Assembly: GCF_014779715.1 (NCBI RefSeq)
Contig: NZ_JACXYU010000001.1
Location: 186,001 to 250,000, forward strand
Length of the DNA stretch: 64,000 bases
Origin: Streptomyces chumphonensis
Lineage (GTDB): Bacteria > Actinomycetota > Actinomycetes > Streptomycetales > Streptomycetaceae
Reading direction: 5' to 3'
Every line of letters starts with the position of its first letter. Within the stretch, counting starts at the first letter, position 1. Shown in pieces: positions 34,689 to 38,570 of the stretch. Made by a program: the position numbers and the translations under genes. The notes beneath the pieces were generated by a model. It had not been told where the DNA came from and searched no databases. It saw only the letters and a list, made by a program, of their open reading frames with translations.

Positions 34689-36833
<2,145 letters not shown>

Positions 36834-36840
36834 GCTCACC

Positions 36841-36863
36841 ACCGTACGGCGCGGCACCGACAA
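36841..36863 (-). promoter_or_regulatory. Exact RecA-NDp (PafBC-type) DNA-damage promoter of uvrB
   Basis: Reading leftward: TTGTCGGTG (36855-36863), 8 nt, TACGGT (36841-36846), then 7 nt to ATG. This is a full match to the described LexA-independent damage promoter TTGTCRGTG-N8-TANNNT of mycobacteria and relatives, which the PafBC regulator activates. Transcription should start at or beside the start codon. Confidence 0.8.
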
Positions 36864-37036: not shown

Positions 37037-37990
37037 GTGTCCCTTCGCCCCACCGCCCTGCTCGGCCCGCTGCTGGGTGCCTTCGCCCTCGTGCTCACCG
37101 CCGCCCCGGCCCCGGCCCGGCCCGCGCCCCTGGCGGATCCGGTCCCCCCCTCCCCGGCCGCCCACGCGGCCGGGCACCCCGCCGCCGTGCGGGACGTGGT
37201 GGCGATCGCGCACCGCGGCGCCTCCGCCTACAGCCCCGAGAACACCCTCGCCGCCGTCGACGCGGCACGTGACCTGGGCATCATCTGGGTCGAGAACGAC
37301 GTCCAGCGCACCAGGGACGGCGAACTCGTCGTGCTGCACGACCCGACGCTGAGCCGGACGACGAACGTCGAGGAGGTCTTCCCCGACCGCGCACCGTGGA
37401 ACGTCGCGGACTTCACGGCCGCCGAGATCGCGCGGCTGGACGCCGGCAGCTGGTTCGGCCCGCGGTACGCGGGCGAGCGGGTGCCGACGCTCGCGCAGTT
37501 CCTGGACCGGATCTCCGACCACCACCAGAAGCTGCTGCTGGAGATCAAGAAGCCCGAGCTGTATCCCGGGATCGAGCAGGACATCCTCGACACGCTGCGC
37601 GAGGAGGGGTGGCTGGACGCCTACCACGTGCGCCGCCAGCTGATCGTCCAGTCCTTCAGCGCCGACGCCCTGCGCCGGGTGCACGCGCTCAAGCCCGCCG
37701 TCAAGACGGGCTTCCTCGGCACACCGGACCCCGACGAGCTGTCCGCGTACGCGCGGTTCGCCGACCAGATCAACCCCCGCTACACCACCGTGACGTCCGA
37801 GTACGTCGACGCGGTGCGGGCCGTGCGGGGCCCGCACGGACGTCGGCTGGAGATGTTCACCTGGACCGTCGACGACGGCCCCACGGCGGCGCGGATGGCG
37901 GACCTGGGCGTCGACGGCGTCATCAGCAACCGTCCGGACGTCGTCCGCGACGCGGTCAGTGCGGGGGACGGAGCCGGCGACTGGCGCTGA
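37037..37990 (+). CDS. glpQ: Secreted glycerophosphodiester phosphodiesterase
   Basis: A 317-residue enzyme with an N-terminal signal peptide (about 30 residues, Ala/Pro-rich, followed by a linker). The catalytic domain has IAHRGASAYSPENT with the catalytic His-Arg and Glu, then ENDVQRTRDGELVVLHD with metal-binding Glu/Asp and the second His, and LEIKK later. It releases glycerol 3-phosphate from glycerophosphodiesters or wall teichoic acids outside the cell. The start is GTG with GAGGAG. Position next to uvrB matches, from memory, S. coelicolor glpQ2. No clear PHO box was seen. A 12-bp palindrome overlaps the ribosome-binding site. Confidence 0.88.
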   Translation: MSLRPTALLGPLLGAFALVLTAAPAPARPAPLADPVPPSPAAHAAGHPAAVRDVVAIAHRGASAYSPENTLAAVDAARDLGIIWVENDVQRTRDGELVVLHDPTLSRTTNVEEVFPDRAPWNVADFTAAEIARLDAGSWFGPRYAGERVPTLAQFLDRISDHHQKLLLEIKKPELYPGIEQDILDTLREEGWLDAYHVRRQLIVQSFSADALRRVHALKPAVKTGFLGTPDPDELSAYARFADQINPRYTTVTSEYVDAVRAVRGPHGRRLEMFTWTVDDGPTAARMADLGVDGVISNRPDVVRDAVSAGDGAGDWR

Positions 37991-37994
37991 CGCG

Positions 37995-38017
37995 CTGTCG
38001 GCGGGGCCCCGTAGGCT
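37995..38017 (+). promoter_or_regulatory. RecA-NDp/PafBC-like promoter of ogt
   Basis: CTGTCGGCG (37995-38003), 8 nt, TAGGCT (38012-38017), then 7 nt to the ATG. Seven of nine upstream positions and the whole -10 and spacer fit TTGTCRGTG-N8-TANNNT. It lies just after the stop of the preceding gene. Confidence 0.55.
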
Positions 38018-38024
38018 CGCCCCC

Positions 38025-38570
38025 ATGACCGCCACGTACGCGCAGCCGGCCTGGACGGTGGTGCCGGCGCCCGTCGGCCCGCTGCTGCTCCTCGCCACGG
38101 ACACCGGGCTGGCGGCCGTCGGCTTCCACGCCGAGGGGCCGGCGGTGCCGCGCGCCCTGGACCGGTTCGCCGGGCCGCTGGGCACCGAGCCCGTCGAGCG
38201 GGCCGGGCACCCGGTGCTGCGCCGGGCCGCGCGGGAGCTCGACGGATACTTCGCCGGCCGGCTGCGCACCTTCGGGGTGCCGCTGGACTGGTCGCTGACC
38301 GGGGGGTTCACCGCGCGGGTGCTGCACGCCCTGGCCGCCACCGTGCCGTACGGCGCGGTGGCCACCTACCAGGACCTGGCCGACGCCGTCGGGGAACCCG
38401 GGGCCGCCCGGGCGGTCGGCGCGGCCATGGGCGCCAACCCGCTGCCCGTCGTCGTGCCCTGCCACCGCGTCGTCGCCTCGGGAGGCGGCATCGGCGGGTT
38501 CGGCGGCGGCCTGGAGGCCAAGCGCACCCTGCTCGCGCTGGAGGGCGTGCTTCCCGCTCCGCTGTTCTGA
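38025..38570 (+). CDS. ogt: Methylated-DNA--protein-cysteine methyltransferase
   Basis: This 181-residue DNA repair protein removes alkyl groups from O6-methylguanine in a suicide reaction. The acceptor is Cys146 in PCHRV (145-149), preceded by the DNA-binding helix (TVPYGAVATYQDLADAVG) and followed by the GGFGGGLEAKRTLLALEG tail. ATG 38025 fits the family and a leaderless promoter. A frame extending upstream overlaps the GDPD gene and is not used. Its damage-type promoter matches its repair role. Confidence 0.95.
   Translation: MTATYAQPAWTVVPAPVGPLLLLATDTGLAAVGFHAEGPAVPRALDRFAGPLGTEPVERAGHPVLRRAARELDGYFAGRLRTFGVPLDWSLTGGFTARVLHALAATVPYGAVATYQDLADAVGEPGAARAVGAAMGANPLPVVVPCHRVVASGGGIGGFGGGLEAKRTLLALEGVLPAPLF

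Follow-up and report, generated by a model that had tools for sequence, protein, structure and literature searches.

The window analyzed here, a stretch of 64,000 nucleotides from Streptomyces chumphonensis, carries uvrB on its minus strand behind a promoter of the RecA-NDp type, the parts of which are arranged as follows.

36863..36841, minus strand: uvrB promoter, TTGTCGGTG-CCGCGCCG-TACGGT, where CCGCGCCG is the N8 spacer
36855..36863, minus strand: PafBC-type -26 element TTGTCGGTG with the core TGTCGG, read from the sequence; the same block is present at 60 uvrB starts of the genus
36841..36846, minus strand: -10 hexamer TACGGT, 8 nt after TTGTCGGTG, read from the sequence
36834..36840, minus strand: GGTGAGC, the 7-nt gap between the -10 and the ATG, read from the sequence; 6 or 7 nt in 60/60 members of the genus
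34689..36833, minus strand: uvrB, excinuclease ABC subunit B, 714 aa (NCBIfam TIGR00631)

The uvrB product matches TIGR00631 with 1069.9 bits against an NCBIfam cut-off of 750.1 and is 88% identical to the UvrB of a Streptomyces tendae record (L086). The ATG start codon occupies 36833..36831 on the minus strand. The first-pass annotation had described an exact RecA-NDp motif before uvrB with a -10 ending 7 nt ahead of the ATG, and this was confirmed in the sequence. The site is the sole exact match to TTGTCRGTG-N8-TANNNT in the 64-kb window, and it has the form by which RecA-NDp promoters are recognized, TGTCRG, 10 nt and TANNNT pointing at the gene. At a 17-nt spacing upstream of the -10 lies TGAACG, which by eye agrees with TTGACA at 3/6 positions.

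With 6-7 nt between the -10 and the ATG, the mRNA would be expected to start at the start codon or one base before it. The predicted +1 is the last base of the 7-nt gap or the A of the ATG, a position that would leave no space for a Shine-Dalgarno leader, and leaderless uvrB is on this geometry a well supported prediction. Two other starts were rejected, only the ATG being conserved (in 60/60 members of the genus): a longer open reading frame from the TTG at 36863 would begin with the first bases of the promoter itself, and a GTG in frame, two codons upstream of the ATG, lies only 1 nt past the -10.

With up to two mismatches allowed, TTGTCRGTG-N8-TANNNT gave five matches in the window, compared with an average of 1.20 over 100 shuffles. 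We defined the strict promoter-plus-start arrangement as TGTC[AG]G-N9..11-TANNNT-N5..8-[AG]TG; the window has just two such arrangements, one before uvrB and one before ogt, where block shuffles predict 0.045. The second occurrence belongs to a DNA-repair methyltransferase gene.

37996..38017, plus strand: second PafBC-type promoter, TGTCGGCG-N8-TAGGCT, 7 nt ahead of the ogt ATG
38025..38570, plus strand: ogt, methylated-DNA-protein-cysteine methyltransferase, 181 aa (NCBIfam TIGR00589)

The Ogt protein scores 96.9 bits against a TIGR00589 cut-off of 46.4. The gene is divergent from uvrB, with a glycerophosphodiester phosphodiesterase gene between the two, and the GTG at 37959 would give too long an open reading frame. 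When 36 loci were searched with tblastn, 14 had an ogt-like gene in full or in part, and the strict arrangement stood at its start in 11 of these, or in 8/11 when our own locus and two loci fetched through the motif were excluded.

Conservation of the promoter and the genes behind the motif

To place the uvrB site among its relatives, 61 sampled genomes of the genus were searched, of which 60 gave a uvrB gene; genome G001 (79% complete) fell below the threshold used. The promoter is kept at 60/60 of these uvrB starts with at least 10 of the 12 consensus positions. Among the first 30 starts, 27 agree at 12/12 positions and 3 at 11; among the second 30, 18 agree at 12/12, 11 at 11 and one at 10, the 18 including one site (L219) with a 7-nt spacer. 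The PafBC-type promoter at uvrB is real and strongly conserved. Because the 59 aligned genus rows, like the 47 class rows described below, were picked by a pattern that needs the TGTC, RG and -10 letters, invariance of those letters is uninformative; the CG directly before the -10 and the G two bases after it are columns outside the selecting pattern, and both are invariant in the 59 genus rows. No TTGACA-like -35 block was found upstream of the TGTC in the 59 genus or the 47 class rows.

The motif was also counted at the genome level. S. chumphonensis has seven exact matches, against none for the reversed control, and this is the fewest among the 61 genomes, every one of which has the motif (7 to 44 exact matches per genome, median 22). 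Together they hold 1482 exact matches, as opposed to 6 for the reversed control. Some of these are coding coincidences; L002 and L253, for example, apparently fall within one and the same coding region of a conserved protein. In the fetched loci, a plausible start codon follows 5-9 nt past the -10 at 27/55 distinct exact sites, compared with 21/187 background TANNNT sites of our own genome, so leaderless spacing is common, though not general, among exact RecA-NDp sites.

Beyond the genus, 80 of 102 genomes with a uvrB match formed the class sample, which omits truncated genes and some extra members of genera already represented; actinobacterial members of a separate set of 80 loci spanning many phyla serve as examples only and stand outside the class counts. 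When the motif position was bounded, 47 of the 80 uvrB starts had the strict form, 14 a loose form and 19 neither, compared with 0 strict and 9 loose of 4000 in a shuffled null. The position bound missed motifs ahead of N-terminally longer starts in three class members and in one Streptomyces locus (L233); without the bound, and with the start codon required to be in frame and open into uvrB, 50/80 starts were strict. The 47 strict rows have gaps of 6 nt (25 rows), 7 nt (18) or 8 nt (4) between the -10 and the start codon, which is ATG in 25 and GTG in 22. This fixed distance in most motif-bearing class members suggests that leaderless initiation at uvrB itself may be under selection. In the class rows aligned on the -10, the C that directly precedes the hexamer and a G two positions after it stand out, and these conserved columns, with the missing TTGACA-like block, fit the activator-dependent sigma adaptation described for PafBC (PMC11804915).

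Variants of the arrangement were also seen. In one family (f20; L136, L142, L174, L176, and L179), the uvrB promoters have TGTCGG followed by a TGTNCT-type -10, a start codon 7 nt behind it, and TTCGAAC a few codons inside the gene. Four loci outside Streptomyces (L141, L177, L075, and L088) have TGTCAC instead of TGTCRG at the uvrB site, and TGTCAC is a reported variant of the PafBC motif in Mycobacterium tuberculosis (PMC8151990).

The genes behind the motif were catalogued in one complete genome (G021), where all of the 21 exact sites except that of uvrB (20/21) were fetched and the genes named from NCBIfam; several of the proteins are truncated at the edge of the fetched sequence and hence score under full-length cut-offs. 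Repair or replication genes lie behind 11/21 sites: uvrB, ung, ruvC, uvrA, ogt, recD2, pcrA, dnaN, recA, a dinG/yoaA-type helicase and another DNA helicase. The motif also precedes genes for a RecD2 HHH-domain protein, ribosomal protein S6, GmrSD, SUKH-4 and SWIM proteins, a sigma-70 family factor, an LppU family protein and two unmatched proteins; at one exact site there is no open reading frame by the criteria used. The gene for ribosomal protein S6 is usually followed by ssb. The distance from the -10 to the first plausible start codon downstream ranges from about 5 to 78 nt.

Several individual loci deserve mention. Upstream of the dnaN-type gene of G021 (L287), an inverted copy of the motif follows it directly (GTCAGTGGTCGCGG...CCGCGACCACTGAC), so that the promoter is covered by an inverted repeat. 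At recA (L007 1501-1523; L261; L288), an in-frame GTG lies 7 nt past the RecA-NDp -10; the usual ATG follows 33 nt (L007) or 36 nt (L288) farther on, and a longer leaderless form of RecA may start at the GTG. In two genomes, a protein of about 104 aa is encoded behind an exact motif with the ATG 7-8 nt beyond (L004 1501-1523; L262); the L004 copy has no Pfam match, and it is possible that this is a new damage-response protein. In our own genome, exact motifs also precede genes for a DUF3224 protein and a WGR-domain/PQQ-repeat protein (L005 and L006).

Early codons of uvrB and a candidate LexA half-site

The first codons of uvrB contain a further candidate control element.

36801..36814, minus strand: candidate LexA half-site TCGAACGCAAGGTG, left half TCGAAC perfect, right half poor

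The TCGAAC itself occupies 36814..36809 on the minus strand and begins at base 20 of the open reading frame, within codons 7-9. The first-pass annotation had stated that no LexA-type palindrome is present, and this stands for the full palindrome: neither TCGAAC-N4-GTTCGA nor a near form of it is found at uvrB, and the left half alone is perfect. The statement misses the half-site inside the gene, which is conserved at the same position in 58/60 members of the genus; the two exceptions (CAA in L211, CCA in L229) keep the A and lose TCGAAC. Codon 8 is GAA in 32/32 coding sequences, compared with 80/1536 cells in the other 48 columns of invariant Glu. The codons around it are mostly G/C-ending (2, 3, 5, 7, and 9), and codon 4 (GTT/GTA) is an even stronger rare-codon outlier than codon 8.

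One account of these codons holds that GTT/GTA at codon 4 and GAA at codon 8 aid translation of the leaderless message and have nothing to do with LexA, so that uvrB would answer to PafBC only. Early GAA is elevated in other leaderless-type genes behind the motif, where it accounts for 9/21 early Glu codons, against 6/33 Glu codons at codons 6-10 of Shine-Dalgarno-type genes, and codon 4 accepts A or T with no single fixed base, as a translational effect would allow. The G/C-ending neighbors, however, argue against a general AT shift, and GAG is found in the same-promoter uvrB genes of other lineages (L051, L053, L055, L150, L185, and L186). Replacing GAA by GAG moves the predicted unpaired fraction of bases 1-15 merely from 0.44 to 0.38, an effect so small that RNA folding was rejected as a discriminator for the GAA codon. 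On balance we give this account an even chance.

Alternatively, uvrB could be under dual control, activated by PafBC and repressed by LexA through TCGAAC in codons 7-11, and would then belong to both regulons, like recA. We scored the site with a LexA matrix built from 17 published Streptomyces venezuelae SOS boxes, on which the training sites score 3.6-17.3. The uvrB half-site scores 11.8, a value equalled or exceeded by the best site in about 2% of random 160-nt background windows of our own genome; it lies under the best boxes of our own lexA (17.3) and recA (14.9), and its right half is poor. The genome encodes LexA, and its recA has a RecA-NDp site preceded, at a distance of 106 nt, by an SOS-type box. 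Dual control would also account for the near-universal position of TCGAAC, for the strength of the GAA bias at codon 8, and for three loci (L227, L231, and L233) in which the N-terminus diverges right afterwards, yet GATCGAAC is kept. Against it, the stronger outlier at codon 4 and the early GAA of other leaderless-type genes suggest a general early-codon effect, and the two exceptional loci retain the A without TCGAAC. The idea that TCGAAC generally accompanies RecA-NDp sites was rejected, since the hexamer is barely enriched near exact sites (7/55, compared with 8.5% of background windows). The main text of the S. venezuelae LexA study does not name uvrB (PMC9380542).

A LexA operator in the first codons of leaderless uvrB, kept through the rare GAA right behind the PafBC promoter, is accordingly put forward as a doubtful candidate, and dual control as a whole seems to us unlikely. 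If true, activation and repression by the damage response would converge within about 60 bp on one start site, and a LexA operator would be written in the protein-coding sequence of uvrB. With LexA encoded, TCGAAC conserved just inside uvrB and a matrix score of this size, the earlier claim that induction follows the PafBC route and "not the classical SOS route" was too strong.

PafB and PafC and the proposed regulation of uvrB

The genome encodes both subunits of PafBC in adjacent genes.

L234 6533-7483: PafB gene, domains WYL and WCX
L234 7489-8457: PafC gene, domains HTH_PafC, WYL and WCX

The best PDB match of PafB is 7p5x chain AY (E 3.3e-58), and that of PafC is chain AX of the same entry, which is named PafC (E 6.8e-52). 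We take 7p5x to be the M. smegmatis PafBC initiation complex. Further strong matches of the two proteins are 9fnd and 6sj9, a PafBC fusion. HTH_PafC was found at E <= 1e-12 in 109/118 genomes of the class and above cut-off in 21/21 relatives from the genus and order; the match in G001 is weak.

The uvrB site is very probably a RecA-NDp-type promoter served by PafBC and firing a leaderless mRNA or one with a 1-nt leader. The assignment to this promoter type, made in the first-pass annotation, is upheld by the sequence and spacing, the lack of a TTGACA-like -35, the conservation, the repair genes behind the motif and the presence of pafBC; the PafBC dependence of uvrB itself we infer from these. 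In an undamaged cell, the housekeeping RNA polymerase would meet a -10 without a -35 and initiate rarely. Upon damage, single-stranded DNA would activate PafBC, as mycobacterial work suggests, and PafBC would link the polymerase to the TGTCGG element and thereby allow transcription of uvrB, the contact and the induction both being modeled on the mycobacterial system. The geometry of the promoter predicts that the resulting mRNA, starting at the start codon or one base before it, would be read as a leaderless message.

The distribution of PafC was compared with that of the motif. In the class sample of 80 genomes, PafC (HTH_PafC at E <= 1e-12) and the strict in-frame uvrB motif show no association (47/75 genomes with PafC, 3/5 without), a comparison in which the PafC-negative genomes are few and some of them incomplete. 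Those that retain the strict motif are G126 (L165, 78% complete), G136 (L187, 91%) and G146 (L197, 98%). Absence of PafC was rejected as a sign that uvrB has lost the motif, as 3/5 negatives keep the motif and 28/75 positives are without the strict form. It was also rejected genome-wide, where G176, G182, and G078 have PafC and 0 matches; PafC-negative G096 and G146 have 1 and 0. PafC is present without a strict motif at uvrB in G099, G106, G110, G113, G143, and G180, and G104, G165, and G176 combine PafC with a weaker motif 40-53 nt from the first in-frame start.

This lack of association makes the PafBC reading slightly less certain and a different regulator of the same promoter, such as ClgR, slightly likelier, as the three PafC-negative genomes with the motif leave room for one. 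ClgR was proposed for the motif in mycobacteria in a 2011 paper discussed in PMC5656591, but later work maps PafBC to the motif and treats PafBC as the regulator (PMC6789036, PMC8223512), and we consider another regulator quite improbable. A chance match to a degenerate pattern, which the coding coincidences among the exact matches might bring to mind, is refuted by conservation at 60/60 starts with fixed geometry, 1482 matches against 6, and 0/4000 strict arrangements in shuffles.

Comparison with known damage-response promoters

The RecA-NDp motif was described for recA of Streptomyces rimosus (Ahel 2002; PMC2375139) and in 2016 for SCO6735 (PMC5087735). These recA and SCO6735 promoters share the TTGTCRGTG and TANNNT boxes with the uvrB site, belong to DNA-damage genes and are described as UV-inducible (PMC5087735, PMC2375139); the present case differs in the gene, uvrB, and in the 6-7 nt that separate the -10 from the ATG. 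In 2008, the motif was proposed for Streptomyces coelicolor genes, with uvrB named alongside ung, dinG, and dnaN in the SIGffRid motif list. This concerns the same gene and the same motif family, and the SIGffRid passage ties S. coelicolor uvrB neither to PafBC nor to leaderless translation (PMC2375139). Among the open-licence papers searched, we found none that links Streptomyces uvrB to PafBC or calls it leaderless, and no mapped uvrB transcription start for Streptomyces or M. tuberculosis.

The PafBC regulon of M. smegmatis and M. tuberculosis shares the motif TGTCGG/TGTCAG/TGTCAC-N10-TANNNT with the site described here (PMC8151990). In M. smegmatis, PafBC acts through this motif (PMC6789036, PMC8223512); UvrABC is among the mycobacterial PafBC targets (PMC8223512), and uvrB mRNA is down 37% in M. 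smegmatis without pafBC (PMC5656591). PafBC control is thus experimental for the mycobacterial regulon, whereas for uvrB here it is predicted by analogy. LexA targets of S. venezuelae include recA and possibly uvrA, uvrB being unnamed in the main text, and some SOS boxes in Table 1 of that study pair a good TCGAAC half with a poor other half, like the uvrB site (PMC9380542).

In the same study (Stratton 2022; PMC9380542), the M. smegmatis PafBC motif seemed from a preliminary search not to be conserved in S. venezuelae, and the existence of a PafBC-type, LexA-independent damage response in Streptomyces was left open. The counts from our 61 genomes, among which S. venezuelae was not singled out, speak against that remark. 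Because the motif occurs in 61/61 genomes, at 60/60 uvrB genes and before many repair genes of G021, uvrB would make a clean reporter for the PafBC question in Streptomyces. Compared with the earlier descriptions, the promoter type and the motif at S. coelicolor uvrB are known, and the details of the start and the possible second control site are new.
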